IMG/VR virus record: IMGVR_UViG_3300027741_000107
Location: 1-47,610 of that record
Length of the DNA stretch: 47,610 nt
Reading direction: 5' to 3' (one strand)
Source: a virus
Shown here: positions 2,952 to 44,560 of the stretch, piece after piece
How the letters are laid out: the number at the start of each line of letters is the position of its first letter
Numbering within the stretch: the first letter of the stretch is position 1
Notes under the pieces: model-generated
Told to the model about the DNA's origin: nothing
The model's input: only the letters and a program-made list of their open reading frames with translations
Database searches by the model: none
Translations under genes and position numbers: made by a program

Positions 2952-2955
2952 GCGA

Positions 2956-3362: not shown

Positions 3363-3390
3363 ACAGCATAGGATAAGGATTGTAAGCAAT

Positions 3391-4668
3391 ATGAGCACAT
3401 TCTCCTGCCCGCTGGTTCGGGTATCTGAGGTGATGGACCATCCAAATGCGGATCGTCTTTCTATTGTCAAGCTGGAAGGGTTGGGCTTTGTGTGTATTTC
3501 TGCCAAGCTGGAGGATGGCACTCCTCGCTACAAGACGGGCGACTGGGTGGTTTATATTCCAAGCGCCGCCATTCTGCCGGAATACCTGCTCAAGGAAATG
3601 GACTTCTGGAATTCCGAAACCCGCAAGGGTATGCTGGCAGGCAGCAATGGTGATCGGGTCAAGCCTCTCCGGCTGCGAGGTATTTTTAGTGAGGGGTTGC
3701 TGTATCCAGCATCAGTCACTGTGAATGACACCACTGAGATGATGCCTGAAGGTTATCTGCGCCGCTACTGGCAAGTGGCCCTAGGAGAAAGCGATGGCGA
3801 GCTTTTGATGCGCATCGTGCGGCTCATGCCCGTGAATAAATTGGAAGCTGTTGAGAGTATTGCAGGGCGCGATATGAGCGAACGTCTGGGCATCACTAAG
3901 TGGGAGCCGCCCATCCCTGCTGCAATGGCTGGTGAAGTTGCTAACATGGTGGAGCATCTTGTTAAGTATAATTTTGAGCGCTGGGAGCGGGTGCCAGACA
4001 TGTTTGAGCTGGGTGAGCTAGTAACTGCTACAGAAAAACTTCATGGGACAAACATGTGCATCACCTGGGTGCCAGACTTCACACATGAGGAAATGTTCGG
4101 CACTCTGGGCAACATCCTGGTGAACAGCAAGGGCCTGGGTGCTAGTGGCCTAGCATTCAAGAACGACGATGCAAATGCTCACAACCTGTATGTGCGCACC
4201 CTGCGTGATCTACTCTCAAATGGATTTGAGCAGAAGTTGGTGAGCCTTGTGGGCATGCTTACTCAACCCAAGCAGTTGGAGATCACAACTGCACTGCCTG
4301 TGCGAATTTGGGGGGAGGTTTTTGGTCAGGGTGTGCAAGATCTGCATTACGGCACCACCAAGCCAGAGTTTGCAGTGTTTGATGTGCGCATTGGTGAACG
4401 GTGGCTCACAGATGCAGAACTTGCACAGGCTTGTGTGCATCTGGGAGTAAACAAGGTGCCGCTAGCCTACAAGGGGCCGTTTGATTTGGCAGCTCTGGGG
4501 GCTGTGCGAGATGGAGCAACCATGCTGGGTGGTGCCAACATGCGAGAAGGCATTGTGGTGCGCAGTGAGAATCTGGAACCACACGCCACACATGGTCGCC
4601 GCATTGCAAAATTTATTAGTCCGGATTACTTGACCCGCAAGTCTAAGAATCAAACTGAATTTAACTAA
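3391..4668 (+). CDS. ATP-dependent RNA ligase, DRB0094/Rnl5-like
   Basis: The 425-residue protein carries the nucleotidyltransferase ligase motifs: motif I EKLHGTN with the predicted adenylated Lys216, a motif III-like segment RIWGEVFGQGVQDLHYG, motif IV REGIVVRS (Glu386) and motif V IAKFIS (Lys407). About 200 residues precede motif I and look like the N-terminal OB-fold domain of the Deinococcus DraRnl (Rnl5) family. Such enzymes seal nicks with a 3'-OH RNA end. I place the start at ATG 3391, downstream of the promoter at 3335; the frame is open further upstream but those codons overlap the promoter. It is one of two RNA ligases in the window and probably serves RNA repair during infection. 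Base composition is GC-richer than the small genes around it. Confidence 0.88.
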   Translation: MSTFSCPLVRVSEVMDHPNADRLSIVKLEGLGFVCISAKLEDGTPRYKTGDWVVYIPSAAILPEYLLKEMDFWNSETRKGMLAGSNGDRVKPLRLRGIFSEGLLYPASVTVNDTTEMMPEGYLRRYWQVALGESDGELLMRIVRLMPVNKLEAVESIAGRDMSERLGITKWEPPIPAAMAGEVANMVEHLVKYNFERWERVPDMFELGELVTATEKLHGTNMCITWVPDFTHEEMFGTLGNILVNSKGLGASGLAFKNDDANAHNLYVRTLRDLLSNGFEQKLVSLVGMLTQPKQLEITTALPVRIWGEVFGQGVQDLHYGTTKPEFAVFDVRIGERWLTDAELAQACVHLGVNKVPLAYKGPFDLAALGAVRDGATMLGGANMREGIVVRSENLEPHATHGRRIAKFISPDYLTRKSKNQTEFN

Positions 4669-10824: not shown

Positions 10825-12018
10825 ATGGCGTACAGCACTTGTATTGAAGACTATCTGGAGGCCATTGCAGGTTGCGACGCCTTCTTTGTGGCTGAACGTC
10901 CCTACGGTAAGATTATCAATTACCGTCAGATGGGCAACGATGTGTTCCCTGATCCTGCTACCGCACCTGATGCGCATACTGCACGATTGTGGGCCTTGCG
11001 TCGTCAGTGCCGTGGTTTGATCTTTGATCTCGCTGGGAATGTGATTAGTCCTGGGTTTGAGAAATTTTTCAATCTGGGAGAACGCACTGAGACCCTGCTG
11101 GAGAATATCCCTTTTGATCAGCCTCATGTGATCATGGAGAAGATGGACGGTTCCATGGTAAGGCCCATGCCCTTGGCAGATGGTGGTTACCTGATGTCCA
11201 CCAAAATGGGGCCCACCGATGTGGCTGCAAATGCTGATCGTTGGGTGCGTGCTCATGATAACTATGACCTCTTCATGCGAGACACTATTGCGCAAGGTCT
11301 CATGCCACTGCTGGAATGGTGTTCTAGGCAGAACCGGGTCGTGATTGACTACCCTGAGGACCGGCTGGTGCTGCTGGCTGTTCGAAATGTTCGCACTGGC
11401 GAGTATCTGCCTCTCAACATGATGCTGGATCTGGTTGAGCATTATAGTGTGGATGTGGTGCGGCGCTATGTGGGCACGCCTGACAGCATGCAACAACTCA
11501 TGGAAGAGACCCGAGACCTACAGGGGCAGGAAGGCTGGGTGATCTGGTTTGACAACGGTTATCGTGTCAAGCTCAAGGCATCAGAGTATGTGGCCATTCA
11601 CAAAGCCAAGGAAGGCATCCTGCGTGAGAATGGCGTAATCAGCATGATGCTGGATGAGACGCTGGATGATGTGAAGGCACACTTGCCTGAAGCAGATCGT
11701 GAGCGTGTGGAACAGTTTGAGCAAGCATTCTGGTCAGGCATCTCTGAGACCGGAAACAGCTGGCAGAGTCAATTTGCAGCAGTCAAGGCTGAGTATGGTG
11801 ATGATCGCAAGGCATTTGCGCTGGGTGCTGCCCAGAGCATGGAAGGCTTCCTGCGCACTGCTGTGTTCAAGGCTTGGGCTGATGCACAGTTTGATTTCCG
11901 TGCTGCTGTGCTGGATGCAGTCAGCAAGAATCTGAGCACGGGTGTCAAAACTGACGCTGCAAGGCATTTGTGGGGCGGTGCTCGGTGGGACTTTGCAGTC
12001 AATACGGGTGATGAGTAA
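10825..12018 (+). CDS. rnlA: T4 Rnl1-type RNA ligase
   Basis: The 397-residue protein has the full motif series of T4 RNA ligase 1. Motif I is EKMDGSM with Lys106 as the adenylated lysine, motif IV is EGWVIWF (Glu236), and motif V is VKLK (Lys249 and Lys251). These lie within ten residues of the T4 positions (Lys99, Glu227, Lys240/242). An upstream CRGLIFD and KFFNLGE segment and an Rnl1-like helical C-terminal region complete the match. In T4 this enzyme reseals tRNA cut by host anticodon nuclease, with polynucleotide kinase healing the ends. AGGAGA precedes ATG 10825 and a consensus promoter lies at 10773. The next gene overlaps its stop (TAATG). Confidence 0.92.
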   Translation: MAYSTCIEDYLEAIAGCDAFFVAERPYGKIINYRQMGNDVFPDPATAPDAHTARLWALRRQCRGLIFDLAGNVISPGFEKFFNLGERTETLLENIPFDQPHVIMEKMDGSMVRPMPLADGGYLMSTKMGPTDVAANADRWVRAHDNYDLFMRDTIAQGLMPLLEWCSRQNRVVIDYPEDRLVLLAVRNVRTGEYLPLNMMLDLVEHYSVDVVRRYVGTPDSMQQLMEETRDLQGQEGWVIWFDNGYRVKLKASEYVAIHKAKEGILRENGVISMMLDETLDDVKAHLPEADRERVEQFEQAFWSGISETGNSWQSQFAAVKAEYGDDRKAFALGAAQSMEGFLRTAVFKAWADAQFDFRAAVLDAVSKNLSTGVKTDAARHLWGGARWDFAVNTGDE

Positions 12019-19731: not shown

Positions 19732-20661
19732 ATGACGCATTGGAGTGAAGTTGAACAGAGTTCAGCATATGTGAAGGTGCTAGACCATGGATTTGTGGGT
19801 CTAGTGGATGTTATGGGTGATGATTCCTCCATTGTGCAGGCTGCCAGAACATCTTATGGCAAAGGCACCAAATCAGTTAGCGAAGATCGCGGTCTGATCA
19901 GATACCTAATGAGAAATTTTCACACTTCGGTTTTTGAAATGATTGAGTTCAAGTTCCACATCAAGCTGCCCATCTTTGTCATGCGCCAGCATGTGAGACA
20001 TCGCACAGCCAACCTGAATGAATACTCTGGTCGATATTCAGTAATGACTGATGAGTTTTATATTCCTGAGCAACATCGTCTGCAATCACAAAGTGTGCTA
20101 AACAAGCAGGGTAGCGGTGCACAACTGGGCGGTGCAGAGCTGGAGGCAGTTCATGATCTGATCAAACACATGAGCACAGAAAGCTATAAGTCATATCTGG
20201 CACTGATTAATGATCCACAATCTGAAGATTATTGGCCTATGGACGGTCGCCAAGGCCTAAGCCGTGAACTTAGCAGAATCATCCTGCCCCAGAACAACTA
20301 CACAGAATGCTACTGGAAGATTGATCTCAAGAATCTGTTGCACTATATCAGGTTGCGAGCAGATTCACATGCCCAGTGGGAAATTCAAGAGTTTGCAAGA
20401 GCCCTGGCTCAGTTTGTTAAGGCACAGTGCCCTATTGCGTTTGAAGCATTTGAAGACTACATGGAACACAGCATGACCATCAGCAGGCTGGAAAAGAACC
20501 TCTTGCAGGATGTGATCAAGAGCAGTAATCAAGCTGGCATAAGCTTTGAGGAATGTTATTATATTATGAAGCAATCAGCTGATAATCTTGCTGTAACATA
20601 CGGCATGAGCAAGAGAGAGCTCACAGAATTTGAAACTCAGTGGCAGCTTACTGCATCATGA
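19732..20661 (+). CDS. thyX: FAD-dependent thymidylate synthase
   Basis: The ThyX signature RHRxxxxNExSxR is present at residues 89-101 (RHRTANLNEYSGR). Upstream Arg/Ser positions (SIVQAARTSYGKGT) and the C-terminal RLRADSHAQWEIQEFA segment, which binds dUMP and FAD in the family, are conserved. The 309-residue length is within the family range for phage enzymes. ThyX methylates dUMP to dTMP using methylenetetrahydrofolate and NADPH, supplying thymidine for phage DNA synthesis. A 10-bp stem-loop overlaps the ribosome site directly before the start, suggesting translational control. The end overlaps the convergent gene at 20656 by 6 bases. Confidence 0.93.
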   Translation: MTHWSEVEQSSAYVKVLDHGFVGLVDVMGDDSSIVQAARTSYGKGTKSVSEDRGLIRYLMRNFHTSVFEMIEFKFHIKLPIFVMRQHVRHRTANLNEYSGRYSVMTDEFYIPEQHRLQSQSVLNKQGSGAQLGGAELEAVHDLIKHMSTESYKSYLALINDPQSEDYWPMDGRQGLSRELSRIILPQNNYTECYWKIDLKNLLHYIRLRADSHAQWEIQEFARALAQFVKAQCPIAFEAFEDYMEHSMTISRLEKNLLQDVIKSSNQAGISFEECYYIMKQSADNLAVTYGMSKRELTEFETQWQLTAS

Positions 20662-24492: not shown

Positions 24493-27400
24493 TTACCTGT
24501 GTCTGGTGCCTGGTTCCGCAATCAGGAACGCAGTTTGTGGTTCAGCAGAGTATTGAATCCCCTGATCACCGCATGGCCAAATATAACCAGCTGGAATCTC
24601 CTGATTCACACTAGCATCCTGAACCCATGTGCCTGCTCTGTGGCTCATGGAACCACTTGAGATACTGTTTATAATGTTAATCATGCACACATTACGATCC
24701 CCAGGTGGTGGAGTATAATTAACTAGATCTGTTTTTATGAACTTGATGTAGGTTCCAGGTACCACACTGGGTGGATCTTTTATGATGTTATAGTGTACCC
24801 CGTTCACTTGTTCTCTGCCATTCACTTTCACAATAGGAGAAGCAAACTCAGTCACATACAGTGTGGTTTCACCATCACCGTTATGGAACTCTGTGGCCAA
24901 ATCACTAAAGATTCCTGTGCTAGTACCCATGGACCCTCTACGCAATCCACCCAGCTTTACACGGTTCGGAAAATCCGCTTTAGCATCAGGTTCTGCAACC
25001 GTGTATTCAATTCTTTCGGAATTTACCCAAATTACACCAGGATTCTGTACAGTGGCCACAGGTAGCTTGGCACCATCCTGTACCCAGATGTGGTCATCCT
25101 GCCAATTAATAGTGTCTGTTAGCTGTGTGTATCTGCTGTCACTCAATCTGTAGAACTTGGTATCCCCATATATGTTCTCAAACATTCTGAACGCCACGGG
25201 TGGTTTTACTGGTTCACTAACCACATAATAAACCATAACCATGTTCATGCCAGGGGTAATAATGGATGAGTGAAATTGCACCTGTACTTGATCTGCTATT
25301 TGTACAAACACATAATCCCAAACTTCTAGCTGTTTTACTCCATCCAAATAAACTTGTACTGAACCAAAGTCCGTGGGCATCCTGCTCAGGATATACACAG
25401 CAGGGGATGCAACTGGAAACCTGTCTTGTGCCCATCTCACACTGCTGTCCTCCTGAAAGGTGATCACTTGCACCTGATCAGTCCCAGTTAGTACACCTGA
25501 CTGGAATACTATCTGTTCATTTGTAATCACATAATCCAGATTGGGAGTAACGGTGTCCACAATTTGAATTAATATGTCACTGAGTACAGCAGGGGTATAC
25601 TCCGCTCTAAATTTTATTTGTGAAGTGGTGGGGAATGTGTATGCAAAGTTGGCTTGCAAAACACCATTTATCCAAACTTTCGCCATGGTATTGGGATCAG
25701 ACACTGTAGTATTCAGATTCCATTCAGTTTGAACCCCGTCTCCTTGAAATCTACGATACTCAGGGCCGCGGATGAGCATGCCGTTTACAAACACCTGGCT
25801 GTTTAACCCTTGTGGTGCTGAGTACAGAGGGGCATATTCCAGATCATAGGATAGATTGGGTAAATCCAATACTAGCGTTTGAACTCTCTTCAAGCTAAAC
25901 AAACTGCTGTTGTACACACTTGCGATCACCACATCGCCCACTTGAGGTATAAAGCCCAACACAATGTTCCGTGGATCTCCGGAGTCCACACCCCAGGAAT
26001 TAGTGGTGGCACCATTGTATGTAACCCATACTGTGCCCACATTAGCAGGGGTATTCAATTGAATTCCTGATGTTACGCCGTCACCATGCAAAGTAACTTG
26101 TTGTTGAATGTGTGCTGGGGTCATGTTCAATTGAATGTTTTTGCCCTGACTTACACCACCACCCGCTGAAATCACACTCAGCTGGGTGAGAGTTTGTGGA
26201 TCCTGTGCATATATGCCTCGTTTACTAATAAAAACTTGTGCAGCTCCCCAAACAGGAACCAGCTCAGCCTGCATCCCCAATCCAGCAGTAAACCAATCAT
26301 CTATACCCACGCCCAAGTTGGTGTAGTAGCCTGCTTGAACAATCTCAAGTTGGGCAATCACGCCTCGTAGGCCAGCTTGATTTTTGATTTGTGTGACTTG
26401 CAAAATGAGTGTTTGTGTGCCTGTGCCATACTTGTACAACAATTTATCACCCACTGCATAGTTTTGACCACCATGCACAATTGAGATAGCCACAGCCTTT
26501 ACAGCAGTAACAGCGGCTTGAGCAAGCTCGCCTGTGGGTATGGACCCTGCCAATGTGATCAGGTCAAACAGTTGATATCCTGAGCCCGGATTAGCTATAG
26601 CCACAGTGCCCACACCCTTGGTGGCCCCTCCCCAACCCAGTTGTTGTATGTTCACCTTGCCCACATCAGGTGCATTCACAAACACCACTTGAGGATATTG
26701 ATAATTAATAACATAATCTGCTGTAACACCATGAGTTTGGAGTTTACCGTTCACAAACACCCACAGTTGTTGATCTTCTGTGATGGGTGCTGGTAGTGCA
26801 AAGTTAGTGCGTACACCATCACTGTCAAAGACCTGATTGTGCATAATGCCTTGACCACCAGTTCCAGCTGTATACACATCATATATGAGATTGGTTCTGG
26901 GCCAAACCATCACAAGCTCCTCAGGATGGCCACCCTCCAGATGGGGTCTGTTCAAACCAGCACCATCAATTGTGGTATCTAACAATGTGGCCAATGCAGG
27001 ATTGAATGTTTCGCCCTTTTCTATAACCCACACATTGGGTCTAGGCTGCACAGGATGTCCAGGCGCAACTGTGAACTTGATCTGATCACCGCTCCATCTT
27101 ACTGTGACACTGGCTTGTATGCCTGTGCCACCCATAACAGGCAATACTGCCATGACAGGTGCAACCAGATACACACCAGGCTCTTCCATAGAGATCGAAG
27201 TTATGGCTCCCAGTGTGGTTACACCGGTCACTCTAAATTTGGCTTGTGAAACATATTGGCCGCCCTGTGCAATCAGTATGTCGTTCATCGAATAACCTAA
27301 ACCTTTATTGCTTACTAATACTTGACTGATCTGATTGCGTATGATCCAATCTTGTGGAGTGAACACTTTCCTACCATCCACCCACACTTGTAGTTCTGTG

Positions 27401-30400
27401 GGTTGCTGAGGGGGTTGTCTTAACATGAACTGGGTTTCAGTATTATTACCCACAAACAATTGATATTTGAGATTTTGTCCGCTGTTCACATTCATATCAG
27501 AATCAGTGTCTTGTTGATTAGTATAGTCCCAACCTTTTACATCATCCCATGCATTGGCATCCCATGCATCTGAAGTCAAAAATTGCTTGCCACTCAAACT
27601 GGTCAGTTTACTTTCGCAGCCGCTTATGAGGCCTGGAGCCTGCGCTGAAGGTTGATCACCTGTGGGCATGTATGAGTCAGATATACGTTGTGCTGCACCT
27701 GTGGGAGCTTGCCAGGCCACAGTTTTCCAGTCTTGCATGGTGATAGTGTTGGACACCTTCTGGTACCATACCCATGTCTGCACTTGGTCCACGTACACTC
27801 GCACTGTGTATCCCACACCCACAGGGTTGTTAATAATGTTTAACACTTGTGTTATATCATAAATGGTGTTTGCAATCTCACCCTCATACTCCAGACCCCA
27901 TGTGATGAAATCCCAATTGGCAAGTCCTGAACTCTGCAACTGATTGCGAGTCATTAGTGTGTAACCGGGGGCTTGTACCTGGATCAATGTGCCCACTAGG
28001 ATATTATTATTCAGTATTATTCCCAACCATGCACTCAAACTGTTACAAGTTATATCCACTTGGGTGGATGATGAATACCCTGGGGAATAATACACTTCAG
28101 GTGCACAGGCAACTCTGTCATAAATCATTCGGGTGCGCATCTGTCTCACCAACTGGGGGTTCAACACATGATTCTGATACCATGCTGTGTATCTGGCATC
28201 TGTTTGTAAAATGACTGCATCTGCAGGAACTTGCTCATCCAGTATTCTCACGCCCTGATTAACATCTGCATAAGGTGGCTTATCAAAATCTGAATACACT
28301 CCCGTGTATGTTTCAGATGCTTTACGCCAATCCACAAATGATCTCACCTTCACATGATAAGGCTTTATTTCATTCACATATGCAATAAGTGAATTTATAT
28401 TATTCTCTGTGTATAACTCAGTGGGTGCTAGAACTTCTGCAAAGCCACGCAAGTTGATGAAACTGGTTTTGAATGCCCAATCCACAAACCGTTGTTCTGC
28501 AAACACCTGATTCACCAGCGCAAACATCAATTGATTGGGCTCATTCACGGAACTATCAATTTTCAATAAGCCTTGTGTGCCCAATGCATTGACCCACAGT
28601 CCCTTCCAGATCTGTTCAAACTCTCTGCGAGTGTCATATTCAGCGCCCAGGATCTCAACACCAAAGCCTTGTGCACCAAATCCCAAATTATTTGCAGCAT
28701 AGTTCCACAGATTGTCTTTGAGTGTCAATGTGCCAGACTGCTTGCCTACCAATCTCCATGTTTTGGATGCAGGCTGCACACACTCATATAAAGCCCATGT
28801 GTTGTTGCCTGTGTTTAATACTTTGACCACATCTCCTGTGACAAAGGCCAAAAATGCATCTCTGTCTGCAAGTGTTCTAAATGTATAATCCCACAGAGAG
28901 CTAGAACTGTACCCTGTATAATACCAATCTGTGATATCCCAGGTGTTTTGTGTACGATAAGTTTGGCTTTGGTACAACTGCCATTGTGCTTGTGAGGCTC
29001 CCACATTCTGCCATGTCCATATGGTCCATTTGTTCATGTTGGTGACATCTGCGCCCACCAGCACCCTGCTACCAAATGGCAGGGTGTAATCCAGATCATA
29101 AAGTGCAGCCATGTTGTCCACTCTCATCACCCACAAAGGAGGGGCCACACCTTGTTGCCATACAATCTTATCTGTGTCCAGTAGTTGCACGCTGGGATTG
29201 GTTTGATTCCATGTGGTGCCAGCCTGAGTTACACCATGAGTAACAGTAACTTGTGCTTGATTCCACACAATACCTGCTGTGCTTAAATCATTAGATCTAC
29301 GTATTATCCAAGGAGTGTTCTTGCTTGTGCTGCCCACATCCAAAACTGTATATGTGCCATTCTGGGCAGCCAGCTCATGATCATATAGTACAGCAGATAC
29401 AGCATGGGTCGGCTCTGATTGGTTTTTGACCAATATTCTGTCCCCTATTTTTACCATAACACCGTCTAGTATGAGTTCACCAGGTTGTGCAGCATATAGC
29501 TCACTAACTTGTGTTTGCGAGTCCAATCGCATATATGCATTCAGTCTGCCTGATGTAATATCTAGTTCATCATAAGGAGTGGTGGCCAACTTCACATCTG
29601 GCACTTGATTGTTGGCTGCAGGCTCAGGGTCTTCACTTTGAAAATAGGGTAGCCAGCTTTGGCGGCCAGGATCACTCAAAGGTGGTTGAGTGCTGGCGGC
29701 TAAAAATTGATTCACCAGTTGCACCACGGTGCGTCTGCTTTGTACTTGGTCCACAAATGTGCCCTGTCTGGGTCTGATCAGTACGCCTTGTGATTGCAAC
29801 TGCCTGAGTGTGGGATCCGGTAATGGATTACCATATGCATCATATTCATACAAACTGGCACCCAGTTTGTTCCACAGCCAGTCAGGTGGTGAACTTCTGG
29901 GATCATTTTGTGCAATCAGGTCAAATTCTCTGTGCACCGTTTCCACATCATATTTGTTAAACCATTTGGTCTGCCATACTGTTTGCGTGCCATTCAGATA
30001 TGGTCCCACATTGCCTATGAGTGTTTGTTTTTCACTAATAGGTGCCCACCAAACAATACCCAAGTTTTCAGGTGCTGCTAATAACGTGGCAATCACACTC
30101 GTGCTAATTTGTCTGTTTGCTGTTGCAGGCACTGTGGTTCCATACTGAACCCAAAAGTAATAAATTGTTTGCAACTGACCTGTGTCTGTCTGTTGCAGTC
30201 TACTCACATGGGGCGGGTTGGTTTGTTTGATTTGACCGGAAGCAATACCAGGGGAGCCAATTGATGTGAGGTCTGCGCCCGAGCGTACAAGATTTTGCCA
30301 TGATGCAGGCGGCACAGGGCTTCGTACCCATTCATAAACGTCAATGCTTGTGCCTGGCGCAATTCTGCCCCAATTTTGGCGGCGTTGATTATCTGATCCA

Positions 30401-33400
30401 GTTTCATAATCCAGGTACCTTGTTGTGCTCAGATCCCACCATACTTGACCCACTTGTGCTTCACCCCATGCTTGGGGAGCATTCACTCCATATGTGAATG
30501 TGGGGTCCACTGTGTATTGTGCAGGATCATATGCAGTTTTATATGTTATTTCTGCGTCTATGTTACCAGGGATTCTGTTTTTTACAGGATCCCATAGTGC
30601 TACTATTTGTAGGGTTTGCAGTGATGTTAAGTCATACAGTCTGCTTTCCTGGATGTAATTCAAATCAGTTTTATAATTTTCTATTCTGTACTCAAACCAG
30701 TTCCTGCCGCTGCTGATATAGATTTTCCAAGGGGTTGTGGCATCACCGTCAATCCATGTCAAATCTCCAGACTGGTAACCCTGCGGTGGTGTGGACTGAT
30801 TTCTAGCGGTGAGAGTGGGGAACCTCATACTGAAATACTGCCATGCTGTACCACCTGAACCTGTGCCTGTGGTGCTCATACCAATTACAAACATGGTGTT
30901 ATCCCACACTGTTATAACTTCAAACGTGTCGTTAATGTTCACACCAGCGTTGACCACACCATATATGACCACCATGTCCCCTTCTTTCAAGCCATGATCC
31001 TTGGTGCTTGTCACAATGGTTTGGGTGTTGTCTCTTGCATTGGGCTGTGTGCTGAGAACACTCCATGCACATGCACACAGCTTGTACACATTCCATCCGA
31101 GCTTGGAATCAATATACTGCCACACTCGTTGACCTGGCTTGATCATGCTCACAGTAGGATCTGCTAGCACTTGTGACCTTATTAGGGCATATAACGATTT
31201 TAACCCAGCTTTGTCTACAACTGTGTAATTTACATCTTCCCTGATCACAGGCCCAGCAGTAGGCAAATCACTCTTTAAACTGCCATATGAAGTTCGCAGC
31301 TTGAACTCGGACAAATCACCATGGCTGTTGACAATTCTTACATCATTTTTCACAATAGTAACTTGATTATCACTTAATGGATCACTGTCTTTATCGCTCA
31401 GTAATGCGACTAGCTGTGGATTGCTAGTCACTTGATCTTGTGGTAGTATTACATCCAGATTGTTCAAGTCCTGGTCATATCCATACTGACCTGCTCTGAA
31501 TGCCCACTCCTCAAAATAGTAAAACTCTTGTTCAGGTTGGACCACTTGTGTGTTCCTGAGCAGTGCATCTATGCTCACACTAGTGCCCTTTTGGTGGATC
31601 ATGCCTTGATAAAACTGGAATTCCGCACTGTTGTCCAGCAACAGATTGGTCAAATAGGTTCGAGGTTGATATGCAACTTGATGCTGAGCCAAGAGTTGTA
31701 AATTGCGTGGTAGGGCCTGGCTTATGGAACTGGTTTGTTTATTTTGATCAAATGGTATGCTTAAATCAGTTTCAAATATCTTCCTCAAGTCATCCACAGA
31801 TTTTTCTAAGTTAGGGATAATTCTGTTGTTCACCACCAGATTGTTCCCCAGCTGACTCACACTTTGTGTGACCAAATAACCTGGGGCTTGCATCCTGCCC
31901 TTCCAATCTAGAGTTCTATACCCAAACAGTTTGAATCTTGCCTGACGTTGATTGAGTACAGGATCATAGATCAAATCTCCAAACACTGTTTTGTTGTTGA
32001 ATATGAGTGCATGTTCCAGACTGGTTGTATAAAGTCTGATCCCGTAAATGCCTTGGTCATTGAGCACTTTGATACTGATGTCATCCTCTATTCGCAAAAA
32101 GTCCAAATTGGCCAAGCTGACAGGATTTCCCAGTCTATCCAAAACACTGTGAGTACCTTGCACCAAACCACCAATGTGTTGAATGATACCAAAATCAGTC
32201 TTGAACTTGCACAAGGTGGCAGCTGGACTTAGAGTCATGTAGGTGCCCGCAGCCCAAGGACCCTGGCTCCAATACAGGAACTCTCTAGCACTCAAACTCC
32301 AGTTACGTGGGCGGCTGGCTGTGGAATCATATTCATCAAACTGCCATCCTGCGGCTTCTTGTGCTCTGCCCAAGCTGATCAGGAAGTCATACACTTGTTG
32401 ACGAGTTTGAAAAACAGTACCATAGGGCACAAGATCTGTTTTGTTGAGCCCCTGCTTGTATTCTGTAACTTGTTGGTTTTCCACAACCACAGTTTGCTTT
32501 GCACCTGTGATGCGGCTGGGTATGATTTCAAAATAAGGATCTCTAGCATCATAACCAATCACTCGCCAACCCTGATTGCGCCCCAAGAATTCCACCAACA
32601 CACCGGTGTACACATATTCTTTAATGCTAGCACTTCTCAACAGCTGGCAAATCACATCTTCTTGGGGCAACAACAAGTTGTCTGTGTTGCTGAGTCCAAA
32701 TGAATCCACCAATGTTCTGATGTTTTGTCCATCTGTAAAACCACCCATTTTGTACATGAGGTTCACACCTGCCCCTCTGATCAGATTACCCAAATACGTT
32801 GTGACACTTCGACTGTCAGACACCAGCTTCTCACTGATCCAGTGTTGAATACCACAACTGCCATGGTAAGTTTCTGTGCTGTTCAAGCTGGGGATCAGGC
32901 TGGGATTCTCTCTGTGCATCACACACGATCTGACTGGTGTGCGTGTGAGTGTGTCACTTAGTACTCGTTGTGAATATGTTTGATCCTCAAATAACTCAAT
33001 CTGTCTGACTCCATCCCACAAATATTCCACAAATGCAGCAGGCCTCATCAAATATGCCCATTGTGACCAAAGCTGATCAGCATCCACACTGGTGAGCCAC
33101 ACATTTTCCATGGGACTTCTGTCACCAAACTTCCAATCTGCCGCAGCTTGTGATTGAGAGGGCAGCTCAGTTATAATCCCAGCATCAAACGGTGCTAGTA
33201 ATTGTCCTGCATCATTCACAGGCACATATTTGCTCAATCCTGGTCTGGCCCAGTCCACATGTGTGCCAGCTCTACCACCCTGGCGAATCACACCTGCCTC
33301 CAGGTCTTGCCATAATTTTAGGTTGCCACGAGTATATGGTGCAGTACCATACTCACTGTCCCACCAGGTTGGCTTCTGACTAAAGCCCAACATTCTCCAA

Positions 33401-36381
33401 GGGGATGCATGAGGTTGATCTGTGTCATAATAATAAAAATAGATCCCTCTCCATGAACCAGGCAACGATTGTTGGTCTTGGTCTGTTGAGCTGCCATAAT
33501 TCCATGAGAAAGGATCACTTATGTCAAATGTGGTGTTCCTGAGAGCATCCACTTGATTCATGGTGAGCCATCTGTTCCAAGCAGGTGCTTGCAATGTGGT
33601 AACGTCTGACCTAGTGTAACTGGTAACACGAAACTTACCACTAAGTTGTGTTCGCACATCCAGGTCAGGCACATGATCCTCCATGGCATACTTCTCAGGC
33701 AGGCTACCATATTGCAATTGTTCAAACAGTAGCCAAGCTTTAGCTACAGGATGAGTCAATTCTGACACATTTGTGGTCACACCTTGTGTGTTCAAAATCT
33801 CTCCCATGGGGTCATTATTGTAGTCACTGAGCACGCACAATGCTCCATTGTGGCATCTTAGGGTGAGAGGTGAGCCAGGCTGGCTTAAATCATAAAAAAC
33901 TGTGGGCACGTATGCACTCCATGCACCCAATCTAGTAGCACTTGCAGGTACCCATGTGGGGTTCACACTCTGTTGTGAACAGTATGCCCCCAAGCTCAAA
34001 TCAAATCCTGAATTGACCCATGCACTGGCCCTAGTCTTGCCCAGATTGATTTGGCGCAGTGCCCTGTCCAACCACAGTTGTGGATTATCCGAACCAGTGA
34101 GTGCTTGATTATTATACACATTCCAAAGCGCATTTATAAATTTGTTATAAAAGCGCAAGTATTCTGTTTGACTCCACTGCATGGCCACCATGGGATCAGT
34201 CACACTCTGACTACCCTCAAAAGATTGACTTTGATCAATACCATTCAATGCCATCAATTTGAGCATGCTGGCTCTGTGTTGTAGAATTACTGTGCCTCTG
34301 CCCAACTGTTTGGGTGAATCTCTCCAGTTGTTGGCACCACTTGCTGTGCCTGTGAATCCTGTTTGATTGCGGATGACGCTTTGGCCATGGGGCAGCATGT
34401 CTGCTAACATGAACTGAGTTACAACTTGATTGTCTGGGTTAGCTTGCAGATTGACAGGAATTTCAAAATATCCATCACGAACCTGATTGTGCACTCCAGC
34501 CCATGTGCTCACTTTAATAACAGTCTGTGCAGCAGGTTTTTCTTTCAACTGGATTGTGTTGTTCAGAACTGTATACTGAGTTTCATTCAATAATGTGGCA
34601 CCCACCTGAACAATAATATTGGGTGTACCTGTTTGTGTAAGCGCAGGCATTTGATCAATTGCAAATGTGGTTTCATTATTTGTGACCACATATTCATTTA
34701 TCACAAACTGCTTTGTTAATTGATCGCTCAAAAACCAATTATTCACATATTGTGCTTGATCTAAAAATGTTTGCTGCCAATAATAGTAACCAGGAACTTC
34801 AACTAGATCTGTATTTTGATAATATGTTACTTGTATTTGTGTACAAGTAACATCAAACACATAATTACGAGCACTTGCAGAATCCACATCTGCCGAAAAT
34901 CCTAGCACAGGATCCACAGGCAATGCTGTGTTCTGCCTGTAGCTGAGCAAACTACATCCTGCAAAGTTACTGTTAGGGTATGAAACTGGATCTGCTAAAT
35001 TTGTGCCCACAGAGTCAAACAGCTCAAATAATGGGGCTTGGTTTATGGTGGCCACATACTCTTGTGAATCTGGGAGCCAATTGGGTAGTAACTGCCTGCT
35101 TTGGCCTCTGACCCATTTTGTGCCTGTGAAATACCAATTGGTGCTTACATTTTCATAATAGGGCTCATTTAGGCTTGTGTCGTTGGGTTTATTTCCTTGT
35201 ATTACAAAAATTACACTTCCAGGTGCACACAATCCGGACTCTGATGTGATATCTGTGATCAGACTTAGTGTGACTTTTCCATCCACTCTCACACCACTCA
35301 CTTGATACAGTCTGTTGTTCAAATTGGTATCTGTAAGATTGGTAAACAACACGATTTGGCCATCGTCCAATCTCACATTGTCCACTAACACATTTGTTTG
35401 TCCAATCACACTGTCCAAGTTGGTACGTTTTGTGTCCACTAAATTGACATTGGTCAGGAATTGAGTACCAAAGTTCCACAATGGGATAGAAGTATCAAAT
35501 TCCAATATGGGACGTTGTGCAGTAACAATAGTACCGTAACTCTGATCTGTTTGACTGATCACCAACACCTGTTTGTGGAACCATCTGTTTGTTTGGCTCC
35601 ATGGATTACCATTTTGACTGCCTCTGGCTATTGTCACATATGCAGGTGTTTCATTTAACCCTGCACTATCCCAGGTGGTGCTGTCCCAGGCTTGTGGAGA
35701 ATCCCATGCCAAATTGGTTTGTGTGAATTCTGGTACTAATCTGATCTGTGTACCCACGCCTTCCACAATATACACTTGGGATCGGATCTGTACGTTTATG
35801 TCCAGTGTAAACTGTACTTTTAATCCTGATGTGAACACAACTGTGGCATTATCTTCTTGCACACCACTGATTGCAAATTTTATGCCACCATCGTATGTGT
35901 ATGTGCTTCCAGTTTGGATTAGTGCACAATTGGTCTCACTCATCAGCTGAATCAATTGGGGTCCTGTGGCCATCCACACATATTGCGTGGAATTGATCAG
36001 TTTGTCCATGTCCACAGGTAGCCCGTAACTGTAATACTCACCTTCAAACAGTCTGTTATGGTCATTAACCAGTGCACCCTGCCATCTGAGCTTGTTAATC
36101 AGATCATCATACGCCAACACATGGGTGATCTGATTGTTCTGTGTGTTGCGACTCACCATACCTGGTTCCACCTGGTAGTTCAATCTGTCTGGAGTTGATT
36201 CCGGGACCCTAGCATCCAGATTGGGATTGTATGTGCTCAAAAGTTGACCCACATATGCATTCACATATTCCACTCTATCTGGCTGGAACATGTTGTCTGC
36301 TGTGGCTGCAAAGAACTTCTTCAACACATCTGTTTGCAATACTTCAGGTAGGAATTCACTAATTCTGCGAGTTTCACTCAT
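24493..36381 (-). CDS. giant baseplate-region virion protein, 3962 aa, gp7-like position
   Basis: The gene follows gp6 by one base in the order gp25 - gp6 - this gene, where T4-type phages encode wedge protein gp7; T4 gp7 is about 1000 residues, so this is nearly four times longer. The N-terminus (ISEFLPEVLQTDVLKKFFAA, then NMFQPDRVEYVNAYVGQ) resembles very large structural proteins of T4-like aquatic phages. The last third holds repeated beta domains with a VxVNG-type strand, near residues 3000 (VWVDGRKVF), 3210 (VFVNGKLQT), 3525 (VFVNGMLIR), 3575 (VWINGVLQ), 3680 (VYLDGVKQL) and 3855 (VKVNGREQV), plus GSGYxxxD-type turns. No enzyme motif or membrane helix is seen. The frame is uninterrupted over 11.9 kb. 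Likely a baseplate wedge or fibre-network component. Confidence 0.75.
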   Translation of the reverse strand: MSETRRISEFLPEVLQTDVLKKFFAATADNMFQPDRVEYVNAYVGQLLSTYNPNLDARVPESTPDRLNYQVEPGMVSRNTQNNQITHVLAYDDLINKLRWQGALVNDHNRLFEGEYYSYGLPVDMDKLINSTQYVWMATGPQLIQLMSETNCALIQTGSTYTYDGGIKFAISGVQEDNATVVFTSGLKVQFTLDINVQIRSQVYIVEGVGTQIRLVPEFTQTNLAWDSPQAWDSTTWDSAGLNETPAYVTIARGSQNGNPWSQTNRWFHKQVLVISQTDQSYGTIVTAQRPILEFDTSIPLWNFGTQFLTNVNLVDTKRTNLDSVIGQTNVLVDNVRLDDGQIVLFTNLTDTNLNNRLYQVSGVRVDGKVTLSLITDITSESGLCAPGSVIFVIQGNKPNDTSLNEPYYENVSTNWYFTGTKWVRGQSRQLLPNWLPDSQEYVATINQAPLFELFDSVGTNLADPVSYPNSNFAGCSLLSYRQNTALPVDPVLGFSADVDSASARNYVFDVTCTQIQVTYYQNTDLVEVPGYYYWQQTFLDQAQYVNNWFLSDQLTKQFVINEYVVTNNETTFAIDQMPALTQTGTPNIIVQVGATLLNETQYTVLNNTIQLKEKPAAQTVIKVSTWAGVHNQVRDGYFEIPVNLQANPDNQVVTQFMLADMLPHGQSVIRNQTGFTGTASGANNWRDSPKQLGRGTVILQHRASMLKLMALNGIDQSQSFEGSQSVTDPMVAMQWSQTEYLRFYNKFINALWNVYNNQALTGSDNPQLWLDRALRQINLGKTRASAWVNSGFDLSLGAYCSQQSVNPTWVPASATRLGAWSAYVPTVFYDLSQPGSPLTLRCHNGALCVLSDYNNDPMGEILNTQGVTTNVSELTHPVAKAWLLFEQLQYGSLPEKYAMEDHVPDLDVRTQLSGKFRVTSYTRSDVTTLQAPAWNRWLTMNQVDALRNTTFDISDPFSWNYGSSTDQDQQSLPGSWRGIYFYYYDTDQPHASPWRMLGFSQKPTWWDSEYGTAPYTRGNLKLWQDLEAGVIRQGGRAGTHVDWARPGLSKYVPVNDAGQLLAPFDAGIITELPSQSQAAADWKFGDRSPMENVWLTSVDADQLWSQWAYLMRPAAFVEYLWDGVRQIELFEDQTYSQRVLSDTLTRTPVRSCVMHRENPSLIPSLNSTETYHGSCGIQHWISEKLVSDSRSVTTYLGNLIRGAGVNLMYKMGGFTDGQNIRTLVDSFGLSNTDNLLLPQEDVICQLLRSASIKEYVYTGVLVEFLGRNQGWRVIGYDARDPYFEIIPSRITGAKQTVVVENQQVTEYKQGLNKTDLVPYGTVFQTRQQVYDFLISLGRAQEAAGWQFDEYDSTASRPRNWSLSAREFLYWSQGPWAAGTYMTLSPAATLCKFKTDFGIIQHIGGLVQGTHSVLDRLGNPVSLANLDFLRIEDDISIKVLNDQGIYGIRLYTTSLEHALIFNNKTVFGDLIYDPVLNQRQARFKLFGYRTLDWKGRMQAPGYLVTQSVSQLGNNLVVNNRIIPNLEKSVDDLRKIFETDLSIPFDQNKQTSSISQALPRNLQLLAQHQVAYQPRTYLTNLLLDNSAEFQFYQGMIHQKGTSVSIDALLRNTQVVQPEQEFYYFEEWAFRAGQYGYDQDLNNLDVILPQDQVTSNPQLVALLSDKDSDPLSDNQVTIVKNDVRIVNSHGDLSEFKLRTSYGSLKSDLPTAGPVIREDVNYTVVDKAGLKSLYALIRSQVLADPTVSMIKPGQRVWQYIDSKLGWNVYKLCACAWSVLSTQPNARDNTQTIVTSTKDHGLKEGDMVVIYGVVNAGVNINDTFEVITVWDNTMFVIGMSTTGTGSGGTAWQYFSMRFPTLTARNQSTPPQGYQSGDLTWIDGDATTPWKIYISSGRNWFEYRIENYKTDLNYIQESRLYDLTSLQTLQIVALWDPVKNRIPGNIDAEITYKTAYDPAQYTVDPTFTYGVNAPQAWGEAQVGQVWWDLSTTRYLDYETGSDNQRRQNWGRIAPGTSIDVYEWVRSPVPPASWQNLVRSGADLTSIGSPGIASGQIKQTNPPHVSRLQQTDTGQLQTIYYFWVQYGTTVPATANRQISTSVIATLLAAPENLGIVWWAPISEKQTLIGNVGPYLNGTQTVWQTKWFNKYDVETVHREFDLIAQNDPRSSPPDWLWNKLGASLYEYDAYGNPLPDPTLRQLQSQGVLIRPRQGTFVDQVQSRRTVVQLVNQFLAASTQPPLSDPGRQSWLPYFQSEDPEPAANNQVPDVKLATTPYDELDITSGRLNAYMRLDSQTQVSELYAAQPGELILDGVMVKIGDRILVKNQSEPTHAVSAVLYDHELAAQNGTYTVLDVGSTSKNTPWIIRRSNDLSTAGIVWNQAQVTVTHGVTQAGTTWNQTNPSVQLLDTDKIVWQQGVAPPLWVMRVDNMAALYDLDYTLPFGSRVLVGADVTNMNKWTIWTWQNVGASQAQWQLYQSQTYRTQNTWDITDWYYTGYSSSSLWDYTFRTLADRDAFLAFVTGDVVKVLNTGNNTWALYECVQPASKTWRLVGKQSGTLTLKDNLWNYAANNLGFGAQGFGVEILGAEYDTRREFEQIWKGLWVNALGTQGLLKIDSSVNEPNQLMFALVNQVFAEQRFVDWAFKTSFINLRGFAEVLAPTELYTENNINSLIAYVNEIKPYHVKVRSFVDWRKASETYTGVYSDFDKPPYADVNQGVRILDEQVPADAVILQTDARYTAWYQNHVLNPQLVRQMRTRMIYDRVACAPEVYYSPGYSSSTQVDITCNSLSAWLGIILNNNILVGTLIQVQAPGYTLMTRNQLQSSGLANWDFITWGLEYEGEIANTIYDITQVLNIINNPVGVGYTVRVYVDQVQTWVWYQKVSNTITMQDWKTVAWQAPTGAAQRISDSYMPTGDQPSAQAPGLISGCESKLTSLSGKQFLTSDAWDANAWDDVKGWDYTNQQDTDSDMNVNSGQNLKYQLFVGNNTETQFMLRQPPQQPTELQVWVDGRKVFTPQDWIIRNQISQVLVSNKGLGYSMNDILIAQGGQYVSQAKFRVTGVTTLGAITSISMEEPGVYLVAPVMAVLPVMGGTGIQASVTVRWSGDQIKFTVAPGHPVQPRPNVWVIEKGETFNPALATLLDTTIDGAGLNRPHLEGGHPEELVMVWPRTNLIYDVYTAGTGGQGIMHNQVFDSDGVRTNFALPAPITEDQQLWVFVNGKLQTHGVTADYVINYQYPQVVFVNAPDVGKVNIQQLGWGGATKGVGTVAIANPGSGYQLFDLITLAGSIPTGELAQAAVTAVKAVAISIVHGGQNYAVGDKLLYKYGTGTQTLILQVTQIKNQAGLRGVIAQLEIVQAGYYTNLGVGIDDWFTAGLGMQAELVPVWGAAQVFISKRGIYAQDPQTLTQLSVISAGGGVSQGKNIQLNMTPAHIQQQVTLHGDGVTSGIQLNTPANVGTVWVTYNGATTNSWGVDSGDPRNIVLGFIPQVGDVVIASVYNSSLFSLKRVQTLVLDLPNLSYDLEYAPLYSAPQGLNSQVFVNGMLIRGPEYRRFQGDGVQTEWNLNTTVSDPNTMAKVWINGVLQANFAYTFPTTSQIKFRAEYTPAVLSDILIQIVDTVTPNLDYVITNEQIVFQSGVLTGTDQVQVITFQEDSSVRWAQDRFPVASPAVYILSRMPTDFGSVQVYLDGVKQLEVWDYVFVQIADQVQVQFHSSIITPGMNMVMVYYVVSEPVKPPVAFRMFENIYGDTKFYRLSDSRYTQLTDTINWQDDHIWVQDGAKLPVATVQNPGVIWVNSERIEYTVAEPDAKADFPNRVKLGGLRRGSMGTSTGIFSDLATEFHNGDGETTLYVTEFASPIVKVNGREQVNGVHYNIIKDPPSVVPGTYIKFIKTDLVNYTPPPGDRNVCMINIINSISSGSMSHRAGTWVQDASVNQEIPAGYIWPCGDQGIQYSAEPQTAFLIAEPGTRHR

Positions 36382-41106: not shown

Positions 41107-41134
41107 TTGACTAGTCCGTCTAGTGTGTTATACT
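41107..41134 (+). promoter_or_regulatory. sigma70-like promoter of the HARP-like gene
   Basis: TTGACT (41107-41112), 16-base spacer ending TGT, TATACT (41129-41134). Confidence 0.75.
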
Positions 41135-41158: not shown

Positions 41159-41884
41159 ATGCAGAACTGGTGTGTGGATCCTCAAGGGACTACTGCTGAA
41201 CGTATGATTCTCCAGTTGGCTGGGATGTGCAACGGTGCCAGCACCTGGGATGGCGCTGGTTTCAGCAAGCTAGATACAGCATTTGGTCACAGCCTGGCTG
41301 AACGTGCCCAGCAAGGGCGTGCTTGGACAGAGAAGCAGGCTGTTGGCGCCCTAAAGCTGATCAACAAGTATCGCCGCCAGATTGGGGGCGAAGCTGTGAT
41401 CCGCACTTGGATGGAACGCCCTGTTTTTGCCATGATGCCGCTCACTGACGCTGAACGCAAGCAGAAGGCTGCGGGTTTGCGCAAGGTCACCAGCGAGGAC
41501 AAGACTGCTGTGTTCACCTTCCCTTACGATGCTGGATTGGTGGCCGCGCTCAAGGGCATCCGTGGCGAACACAAGGGCCAAAAGTATTGGAGCAGCTGGG
41601 ACGGCGCTCACAAGCGTTGGAGTGTGCCGGTGAATGAATCCAGCATTCAGCAGATCATGACCTTGGCACGCGACTATGAGTTTGAAATCGAAGAACGTTT
41701 TGAAACATATTACAGCCGGGTAATGGCCAAGCTGGAATCTGTGCAGGGAGCAGCAGAGGAGAGCCGGGTTGTGACCACCCTGGGTTATGAACAGGCAGTG
41801 GCAGTGAATGATGGCATGATTACCATCACGCACAAAGATGCCAGTGTGCTGGCTGAATTCCAGGAAGCTCTTGCTAAACTGTAA
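41159..41884 (+). CDS. HARP-domain-like protein beside a SNF2 helicase
   Basis: AAGGAG at 41145-41150 sets the start at ATG 41159 (241 aa). From about residue 118 to 180, the pattern VFTFPYDAGLVAALKGIRG, then YWSSWDGAHKRWSVPVNESS and IQQIMTLARDYEFEI matches the HARP domain of SMARCAL1-type annealing helicases (a strand F-x-F-x-Y, a helix with LK-x-I, an aromatic W-x-x-x-x-x-x-W-x-V-P core). In animals HARP directs the SNF2 motor to fork-like DNA and is fused N-terminally to it. Here the next gene encodes such a motor, so the pair looks like a split annealing helicase. The N-terminal 110 residues are unrecognised. It has its own promoter and a 12-bp terminator hairpin. Confidence 0.65.
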   Translation: MQNWCVDPQGTTAERMILQLAGMCNGASTWDGAGFSKLDTAFGHSLAERAQQGRAWTEKQAVGALKLINKYRRQIGGEAVIRTWMERPVFAMMPLTDAERKQKAAGLRKVTSEDKTAVFTFPYDAGLVAALKGIRGEHKGQKYWSSWDGAHKRWSVPVNESSIQQIMTLARDYEFEIEERFETYYSRVMAKLESVQGAAEESRVVTTLGYEQAVAVNDGMITITHKDASVLAEFQEALAKL

Positions 41885-41910
41885 TAGTGTGGCAAAAATG
41901 CCACACTATT
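41883..41910 (+). terminator. hairpin terminator, 12-bp stem, AAAA loop
   Basis: AATAGTGTGGCA (41883-41894) and TGCCACACTATT (41899-41910) pair perfectly around AAAA. The left arm begins inside the TAA stop codon. No T-run follows, so termination may depend on other factors. Confidence 0.7.
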
Positions 41911-41925
41911 CCTGTGAAAAATTGG

Positions 41926-41954
41926 TTGACAGGGTCCACCACTAGTGCTATAGT
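41926..41954 (+). promoter_or_regulatory. sigma70-like promoter of the SNF2 helicase
   Basis: TTGACA (41926-41931), 17-base spacer ending TGC, TATAGT (41949-41954). Confidence 0.75.
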
Positions 41955-41980
41955 GTGCTCACAAGACGAGGAGACTGTGG

Positions 41981-43573
41981 ATGTTGGAATTTACTGCTAG
42001 CCCTGCTCGTGTTCGTGAAGCCACCAAGCTGGCCTATCGTTATGGCATCCAGATGACCCAGGGCGTGAGTGACTACTGGCGCAGCCTGCCTCGTGCTGCA
42101 ACCATTCCTGGGTTTGCGTTCACCCTCAAGCCCTACCAGGCTGAGGGCGTGGCCCATTTGGAAAAGTGGGACGGAAATGCACTGATTGGTGACGAGCCTG
42201 GTTTGGGCAAGACTGCCCAGGTGATGGCCTACGCCCACAAGCACCGTCGTTTCCCCATGCTGGCTGTGCTGCCCAAGACTCTAATCCTCAACTGGCGTCG
42301 TGAGCTGACCCTGATGCTGGGCGCTCAGCTCAGTGTGCTGGTGGTGGGCTTTGTGCCCAGCAAGCAGCGCCAGGCCCAGCTCAAGGCGCAGTATCCCCAT
42401 GTCACGTTCAGCAAGATGCCGCTGCCAGGCTTTGATGTGACCCTGATTAACTATGACATCGTGGCCCGCAACCAGCAGGCGCTGGAAGATGTGGGTTATG
42501 ATTATGTGGTGGTGGACGAGAGCCACAAGATCAAGAACCCCAAGGCTCAGCGCACTCAGGCCATCCTGCGCCTGATCACGGGCCGTGAGGAGGTAAAGGG
42601 CAAGCGGAACGAGTGGCGTGTGCTACATGATGGTGTTCGTAGCGTCACTTTCATGACGGGTACACCCATTGTGAACAGGCCGTTGGAACTGTGGACCACA
42701 GTGAGCACCATTGCTAGCTGGGTGCCCCAGTTCGCCAACTTCTTCGCATTTGCCCAGCGTTACTGCAACGCCCACCGCACTCAGTGGGGTTGGGATTTCA
42801 ACGGCCACAGCAACGAAGCTGAGCTCAACCAAATGCTGTGTGACACTATCATGATCCGCCGTCGCAAGGAAGATGTGCTCAAGGATCTGCCGCCCAAGAC
42901 GTTTGTGACCGTGCCCTTGGAGTTTGACCGTCGCGAGTATGATGCTGTGGCTCAGGCGTTTGAAGGTCGTGGTGACTGGAAGCAGGGCATGCAGACACTC
43001 ATCAACTATGGTGGCAATGCTGCCAAGAGCGATGAGGCCATTGTGGCCATCAACAAGTGCCGCGAGATTGCAGGCTACGCCAAGATGGCCAGTGCCATTG
43101 AATGGATCCTGGACTACGTGGAAGAGGGTGAGAAGCTGGTGGTGTTTGCACATCACCAGCGGATGGTGGATCAGATCACTGCTACTGTCAAGGCTGCTGG
43201 CGTGGGTGTGAGAATGATCCGCGGTGGCGTGGGCCTGGAGGAGCGGGCGCAGGCGGCGCAGGAATTCCAGACTGACAGCAGTGTCAAGGTGATGGTGCTC
43301 AACATCGCTAGTGCAGGCTTTGGCATCACGCTCACTGCTGCCCGGGCGTGTGCGTTTGTTCAGCTGCCCTGGACACCAGGCGACCTGATCCAGGCTGCTG
43401 ACCGTGTTCACCGCATTGGCCAGACCGACAACGTGACAGTTTACAACCTGGTGGCAGAGGGCACGGTTGAGGAAACGATTGGTGAACTGATCATGGCCAA
43501 GGCTGAAGTGGCCAATGCTGTGGTGGATGGTGGTGCCAACACAGAGCTGGCTACCATGAGTCTGGGTAACTGA
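41981..43573 (+). CDS. SNF2-family helicase, SMARCAL1-like
   Basis: The 530-residue protein has the SNF2 helicase motifs: motif I GDEPGLGKT (Lys77), motif II DESH (179-182), motif III FMTGTP, motif V ASAGFGITLTAA and motif VI QAADRVHRIGQ. The compact core without large insertions, and LKPYQAEGVAHLEKWDGNAL before motif I, are closest to SMARCAL1/HARP-type translocases, which rewind DNA or remodel stalled forks. In T4 the analogous job is done by UvsW. GAGGAG precedes ATG 41981. The gene is visibly GC-rich compared with most of the window. Its partner may be the HARP-like product of 41159. Confidence 0.9.
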   Translation: MLEFTASPARVREATKLAYRYGIQMTQGVSDYWRSLPRAATIPGFAFTLKPYQAEGVAHLEKWDGNALIGDEPGLGKTAQVMAYAHKHRRFPMLAVLPKTLILNWRRELTLMLGAQLSVLVVGFVPSKQRQAQLKAQYPHVTFSKMPLPGFDVTLINYDIVARNQQALEDVGYDYVVVDESHKIKNPKAQRTQAILRLITGREEVKGKRNEWRVLHDGVRSVTFMTGTPIVNRPLELWTTVSTIASWVPQFANFFAFAQRYCNAHRTQWGWDFNGHSNEAELNQMLCDTIMIRRRKEDVLKDLPPKTFVTVPLEFDRREYDAVAQAFEGRGDWKQGMQTLINYGGNAAKSDEAIVAINKCREIAGYAKMASAIEWILDYVEEGEKLVVFAHHQRMVDQITATVKAAGVGVRMIRGGVGLEERAQAAQEFQTDSSVKVMVLNIASAGFGITLTAARACAFVQLPWTPGDLIQAADRVHRIGQTDNVTVYNLVAEGTVEETIGELIMAKAEVANAVVDGGANTELATMSLGN

Positions 43574-43592: not shown

Positions 43593-44333
43593 ATGGCCAC
43601 ACGAGCAATCAGTCACGATTTGGATAACGCATATATCAGACATCTGTTACCTAAAGTTAAAGGATATGAAAAGCAGGACCCATCCACTATTGAGTGGATA
43701 ATTGAGCATGGCCTGATGCAGGCGAGCACTGTGGCAGAACATGCGGTGGCCTCTGTGGGTGGTCATGAAGTGGTGAGTGAAGACAGCCATGACATTTCAA
43801 ATGGTTGTGATGTCAAACTGGCCACAGCTATAATTTATGGTACGCCGCATGCCTATGGAACACTTCTGCGGAACTTCAAAAACAAAACTGGTGATCTGAT
43901 TGTAATTGTGTATGAACGTATATTAGACAAGTTTTACTATTTTAGGATTCCGCACAGTGCCTATTCTCAAATCAACAGTTGCCTGACCATACCGTTCAAC
44001 AAAGATGGCACTCCCCTACGCTATATTTACAACAACACGGTAAAACAAAAGTGGTGGAAATACGAGAAGACTACATTTGAAGAAATGGTTATTACAGACA
44101 TTATTCCTCTTGTAGGGGAACATTTCACAGTGTTGACTGAAATGGGTTGGCCCGATGCATGGTTTGTGAACGACCACAAGGATCCATCTATGAGGACACA
44201 TAGGGAACAGAAACAAAGTTGGGTGGCCAGCCAAGGGCTAACATCCGACTGTAGCGAACGTATTGGTGGCTGGGCATTTAGAGACAAGCAGGCCGCCCTT
44301 GCATTCATGGTGGAGTGGAAACATACACTGTGA
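43593..44333 (+). CDS. putative restriction-endonuclease-like protein, 246 aa
   Basis: CAAGGAGAT precedes ATG 43593. A central segment reads VVSEDSHDISNGCDVKLATA followed by FKNKTGDLIVIVYE and FYYFRIPHSAY. The D...D-x-K order and following strands resemble a PD-(D/E)XK nuclease core, but the assignment is tentative. The last 45 residues (SWVASQGLTSDCSERIGGW, then FRDKQAALAFMVEW) are shared with the small protein encoded next. The gene follows the helicase by 20 bases and overlaps the next start (TGATG), so these three probably form an operon. Confidence 0.5.
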   Translation: MATRAISHDLDNAYIRHLLPKVKGYEKQDPSTIEWIIEHGLMQASTVAEHAVASVGGHEVVSEDSHDISNGCDVKLATAIIYGTPHAYGTLLRNFKNKTGDLIVIVYERILDKFYYFRIPHSAYSQINSCLTIPFNKDGTPLRYIYNNTVKQKWWKYEKTTFEEMVITDIIPLVGEHFTVLTEMGWPDAWFVNDHKDPSMRTHREQKQSWVASQGLTSDCSERIGGWAFRDKQAALAFMVEWKHTL

Positions 44334-44560
44334 TGGAGGCAATAACCTGTGTGACCACTCTCAGTAACTTACATTGGCCCCCTGGCTATGCATGGCATGT
44401 GAGTGATGGAGAAAAAAATACTCTTAGTAGACCACTTGAAGGTAGTAAGCGGGCATGGATACGAAGCCAAGGCTTGGAGTCTACATGTATGGAAACCATG
44501 GGTGGTTGGAGTTTTAGGAACAAAGAAGATGCCATAGAGTTTATGCTGGCATGGAGTTGA
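44333..44560 (+). CDS. small protein repeating the C-terminal module of its neighbour, 75 aa
   Basis: The start is ATG 44333 in a TGATG overlap with the previous gene. The last 35 residues (AWIRSQGLESTCMETMGGWS, then FRNKEDAIEFMLAWS) match the C-terminal end of the 43593 product nearly position by position, and the terminal FMLAWS resembles FLLAWS in the 14288 product. It looks like a free-standing copy of a small domain. Function unknown. Confidence 0.6.
   Translation: MEAITCVTTLSNLHWPPGYAWHVSDGEKNTLSRPLEGSKRAWIRSQGLESTCMETMGGWSFRNKEDAIEFMLAWS

Follow-up and report, generated by a model that had tools for sequence, protein, structure and literature searches.

Two consecutive genes on the + strand of a 47.6-kb virus record (analysed over its full 47,610 nucleotides and referred to here as the window) encode the proteins P0001 and P0002, which are probably the two subunits of a HARP-SNF2 DNA translocase, joined by complementation of a HARP domain, their contact and activity being predicted. 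More specifically, we infer the physical contact of the two chains, as well as the DNA specificity and activity of the pair. P0001 (positions 41159..41884, +; 241 aa) comprises an N-terminal module, a HARP domain and what appears to be the first half of a second HARP, and its ATG start is preceded by AAGGAG. P0002 (41981..43573, +), a 530-aa SNF2 translocase motor, has GAGGAG upstream of its start. Both lie where the initial annotation had placed two adjacent ORFs of 241 and 530 aa.

The assignment of P0002 as an SNF2 motor, already made from the bare sequence, was borne out by its Pfam domains (SNF2-rel_dom, 1.5e-27; Helicase_C, 5.1e-15), by its best PDB match, the archaeal SNF2/Rad54 helicase 1z63 (E 2.5e-34), and by its intact motifs. 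The two-RecA-lobe motor spans 42119..43510 (+, residues 47-510) and contains Walker A (GDEPGLGKT, 70-78), DESH (179-182) and motif VI (QAADRVHRIGQ, 471-481), i.e., all the features by which SNF2 translocases are recognized (SNF2 and Helicase_C domains, Walker A, a DEAH-type motif and motif VI). A RapA profile also matched P0002 (4.5e-13, far under cut-off), marking RapA as an SNF2 relative, and some jumbo-phage SNF2 enzymes have been proposed to act with RNA polymerase (PMC7824862), both of which would suit a role in transcription, with the pair recycling RNA polymerase as RapA/HepA does instead of working at forks. However, the HARP domain is familiar from enzymes that remodel forks (PMC4666394), no RapA-specific domain was found and no phage RNA polymerase was among the window proteins scanned, making this role very unlikely. 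Similarly, the ZorD and DrmD profiles matched the motor region (far under cut-off), a reminder that SNF2-like motors occur in defence systems, and the complex could be imagined to serve counter-defence or host-DNA processing instead of phage fork repair; yet no defence-specific domain was found and fused relatives are widespread in phage contigs, so that we consider this very unlikely.

P0001, as read from its sequence, is composed of two modules plus a tail. The first, a helical module at 41195..41416 (+, residues 13-86, ...GFSKLDTAFGHSLA...KQA..ALKLINKYRRQ), provided the first lead, as tblastn matched it to the C-terminal ends of Thermus phage SNF2 proteins. Thermus phages and some 20 IMG/VR relatives carry such a module at the SNF2 C-terminus, and a fused 820-aa family carries it at the N-terminus; in the scanned proteins it had no match to any Pfam family. 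It thus presents as an unnamed mobile domain, found at either end of phage SNF2 proteins (at SNF2 C-termini in L091-L114). In Thermus phages phiLo and MN1 and in Rhodothermus phage RM378, the SNF2 protein has a motor about 34% identical to that of P0002 and shares the P0001 module, but carries it at the motor C-terminus and has a short DUF5710-like N-terminus. A partial duplication was seen in L019, where a 55-aa ORF (1454-1621) upstream of the full gene repeats the first ~38 residues of P0001 (71%).

The second module is a HARP domain at 41483..41704 (+, residues 109-182), delimited by hhalign, a repeat HMM and AlphaFold elements. As a single sequence P0001 had no HARP match in Pfam, NCBIfam, PDB sequences or PF07443; it did not reach the PF07443 curated cut-off (25 bits), nor did anything in the window match that family, and a match to PHROG 21015 was weak (0.0047). 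The domain became visible through relatives in which all the parts are fused. Scanning viral contigs with a P0001-family pattern yielded 80 loci out of 143 relatives, whereas a pattern scan of bacterial and archaeal genome contigs found no P0001 relatives. The relatives fall into three architectures: split pairs, SNF2 with a C-terminal module, and a fused form with the module, HARP-like repeats and SNF2. The last is exemplified by L115, an 820-aa chain with N-terminal module, HARP repeats and SNF2, and the same arrangement on a single polypeptide runs through L115-L163. Scanning with L115 brought in further relatives, among them proteins of 640 aa in which two HARP-like repeats accompany SNF2. 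Fused homologues in other phages, which the initial annotation had proposed looking for, therefore exist, and its contrast between a protein fused in animals and split in phage stands for the present pair but not for phages at large, since many of the phage relatives found are fused.

As judged by profile searches, the repeats of the fused phage proteins are HARP domains. Pfam HARP matched 23 of 30 fused proteins (best 8.9e-9), and in L125 it scored 29.7 bits against the 25-bit curated cut-off, the best stretch (179-208) being the repeat homologous to that of P0001. The HARP of SMARCAL1 (4o66) was the top PDB match of the fused repeats, ranked first of 177,635 PDB sequences with both a single protein (E 0.1) and a profile (E 0.029), neither E being significant alone. 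A six-frame search of ten related records with PF07443 gave no match; this search may be too coarse for a short domain, because fused relatives of similar source do match when scanned as proteins. Some fused genes carry further features: in L156 (3001-6489) an insert that directly follows Walker A and matches LAGLIDADG (3.7e-8) and, weakly, Hint is a probable intein; in L158 (3001-5952) the motor insert is shorter (~165 aa), perhaps a mini-intein; and the fused HARP-SNF2 genes of L159-L163 have motor inserts as well.

The P0001 HARP profile, in turn, aligned with the fused HARP repeats by hhalign with E-values of 1.7e-17, 8.4e-14, 7.2e-10 and 9.1e-10; the reversed controls reached no better than 0.01. 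In line with this, an HMM of the fused repeats found P0001 residues 109-179 (E 1.8e-9, for 10,000 sequences), and residues 8-182 aligned with the fused L115-L163 family (profile alignment, E 1.3e-22). An AlphaFold model, built with no templates and with alignment rows from the split family only, placed strands at 109-113, 116-120, 135-138, 141-148 and 153-157 and helices at 125-132 and 162-172. The HARP fold has been described as five strands and two helices (PMC4666394), and residues 109-172 of the model match this inventory at the level of elements only. Foldseek searches with two AlphaFold models returned nothing below E 0.02, and no HARP among the matches listed, the insignificant ones being mostly LAGLIDADG endonucleases. 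Since the fused repeats match Pfam HARP and the P0001 profile aligns with those repeats, we regard the HARP homology of P0001, drawn through this bridge, as firm. The HARP-like pattern noted at the outset is thus real at residues ~109-182 and seen via family profiles: the proposed profile check fails with the single sequence against Pfam and succeeds with hhalign and the repeat HMM.

What follows this domain points to the site where the chains would meet. The break between the two genes lies, we think probably, inside the motor-proximal HARP, with its halves shared between the P0001 tail and the P0002 N-terminus. The proposed first half (strand-strand-helix) is at 41780..41881 (+, P0001 residues 208-241), with weak scores in a consistent register, and the proposed last half (strand-helix) at 41981..42070 (+, P0002 residues 1-30). 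Against a two-HARP family, P0001 residues 109-224 aligned on positions 16-103 (8.7e-14), i.e., through the first HARP and into the first strand of the second, and P0002 residues 6-59 aligned with the end of the second HARP and the linker (1.8e-7, partly from the start of the motor). On the fused-repeat HMM, almost all P0001 tails fell on positions 2-24, the first third, and the P0002 N-termini all fell on positions 45-72, the last third; the joined halves averaged 1.4 bits, while shuffles averaged -2.6 (sd 0.4). Aligned with the fused repeats by hhalign, each half outscored nearly all of the column shuffles, these half-domain scores being individually weak (P 0.001-0.06) and drawn from sequences related to each other; the P0001 tail was no better than shuffles when aligned with P0001's own HARP. 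In one alignment (A5) MAFFT, unprompted, matched most of the single N-termini of P0002 (eight to nine) to the latter half of the HARP in P0001.

To these alignments we added a tethered model, in which the read-through translation of P0001 and P0002 served as a tether and which is not a model of a complex; two alignments misplaced at the tail or N-terminus were left out of the folding. The tail was predicted as strand-strand-helix (pLDDT 73-78) and the P0002 N-terminus as strand-helix (83-85), joined by a disordered linker (30-37), with a pTM of 0.54. The N-terminal strand of P0002 may pair with the tail strands, since its strand call needs a partner, and confident partner strands are present in the tail alone. 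A HARP divided in this way would be without the middle strands between the first helix and the last strand.

The split itself is, by its phylogeny, old and maintained, because the split SNF2s form a single clade (support 100/100) beside fused relatives and keep their partner in nearly all loci. In the motor tree the fused HARP-SNF2 families neighbour this clade, and the group with the module at the C-terminus falls outside under midpoint rooting; one fission of a fused ancestor would be the simplest history, if that root is right. Of 53 split loci, 50 have a P0001-type partner close to the motor, and in the other three a contig end cuts the locus on at least one side. Partner-motor gaps range from 57 to 1217 bp, in some loci with other genes between, and 13 are divergent. 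As the pair has been kept through spacing changes and inversion, P0001 and P0002 likely form a functional pair. Taken together, the HARP-type domain in P0001, the SNF2 motor in P0002 and the fused homologues uphold the earlier description of a split form of a HARP-SNF2 protein. HARP and SNF2 do not share one polypeptide here, as they do in SMARCAL1-type proteins: they are in separate genes, with promoter-like sites, and are divergent in 13 relatives. A distinct break was seen in L178, where a single in-frame stop in a fused gene (1542-3473) leaves 145 aa with two HARPs and 495 aa of motor, possibly a second independent split or a sequencing error.

The layout of the locus bears on whether the chains act together. 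Upstream of P0001 is a sigma70-like promoter-like site at 41107..41134 (+, TTGACT-16-TATACT, 10/12) and upstream of P0002 another at 41926..41954 (+, TTGACA-17-TATAGT, 11/12; kept in L006 and L007), both being consensus matches only and both agreeing with the initial annotation's claim that each gene has its own promoter; a phage-specific promoter motif common to both genes was not commoner than in shuffles. The hairpin it had reported between the genes is equally real (41883..41910, +; 12-bp stem, AAAA loop; -18.7 kcal/mol, z -4.6) and is the probable P0001 terminator; a T run comes after this hairpin in L045, like an intrinsic terminator. Because a promoter-like site precedes each gene and the hairpin lies between them, P0001 and P0002 are most likely separate transcription units. 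A programmed read-through or frameshift fusion was ruled out by this terminator-promoter stretch and by the divergent order in relatives, and a split intein joining the chains was ruled out as well, inspection finding no intein ends at the P0001 C-terminus or the P0002 N-terminus.

Separate promoters and a probable terminator, along with the divergent orientation seen in relatives and their spacings as wide as 1.2 kb, interrupted by other genes, give no sign of coupled synthesis, and Pfam HARP is blind to P0001. These points would fit two proteins of the same pathway that form no stable complex, P0001 binding junctions on its own and P0002 being a whole motor whose HARP was lost. Yet the second half of a HARP stays in register at the P0002 N-terminus of diverse relatives, and the partner is retained despite rearrangement, which leads us to consider such independence unlikely.

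The surroundings hold other features. Downstream of P0002, ORFs of 246 aa (43593-44333) and 81 aa (44315-44560) have a common ~67-aa C-terminal unit (43% identical), and L019 contains a row of small ORFs whose ends resemble this unit. Elsewhere in the window are two RNA ligases (Rnl2-type and T4 Rnl1-like) and a ThyX thymidylate synthase (3304-4668, 10825-12018 and 19732-20661), and a single 3962-aa ORF (24493-36381, -) adjoining baseplate-type genes.

We propose that P0002 would act as an ATP-driven double-strand DNA motor, and that P0001 would bring the helical module and one complete HARP for DNA-junction recognition, as suggested by SMARCAL1. Binding of the chains would rebuild the motor-proximal HARP in trans, from strand-strand-helix of P0001 and strand-helix of P0002, and the rebuilt HARP would couple junction recognition to the motor, equipping it for branched DNA. 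The likely activity would be to rewind (anneal) single-stranded stretches and to remodel branched DNA, either at the forks of the phage or at intermediates of recombination. The minimal annealing helicase of SMARCAL1 is its motor-proximal HARP plus SNF2, and HARPs fused to other SNF2 motors confer annealing helicase activity (PMC4035279). A stricter form of this proposal, to which we give somewhat less than even chances, is an obligate two-subunit fork-remodelling enzyme in which the HARP is rebuilt only on binding, so that assembly switches the motor on.

The further suggestion that the pair perhaps replaces UvsW found no support. Jumbo-phage SNF2 proteins have been suggested as UvsW stand-ins in groups without UvsW (PMC7824862), but a 328-kb relative (G005) carries the split pair together with a UvsW homologue (2oca, E 4.9e-26). 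The nine further records searched, each of which may be a fragment, yielded no UvsW. Replacement of UvsW as a general rule is not supported. T4 UvsW, reported to have a single HARP domain (PMC4666394), resembles the pair as an SF2 fork-regression enzyme with HARP, but differs in not being SNF2-type and in that its homologue coexists with the pair.

The vertebrate form of SMARCAL1/HARP is a single protein with two HARP domains and SNF2. The phage pair shares with it tandem HARP units directly before SNF2, the HARP fold elements and a proximal HARP tied to the motor, but consists of two polypeptides from two transcription units, with the proximal HARP apparently divided between the chains and an extra N-terminal helical module. 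The fused phage HARP-SNF2 proteins (IMG/VR L115-L195; Arthrobacter phage LiSara gp93) have the same motor family and HARP repeats, and in the L115 group the P0001-type N-terminal module, but are single chains of about 555-830 aa that stand beside the split clade in the tree. HARP-SNF2 fusion was already known; an arrangement of two genes broken within HARP is undescribed in the open-licence literature searched. A 2022 paper stated that no SMARCAL1 homologue was known in prokaryotes (PMC9368896); HARP-SNF2 in phages goes against this, if phages are counted.

HARP-SNF2 enzymes have been treated as eukaryotic, and the phage families show the architecture to be widespread in bacterial viruses. The split pair is a natural experiment, in which the contribution of HARP can be added or withheld in vitro, and it predicts the site of contact between the chains. 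Phage SNF2 proteins, the role of which has been stated as unknown (PMC9069017), also gain a proposed function from it. If true, obligate assembly would be a case of natural fragment complementation in a SMARCAL1-like machine.
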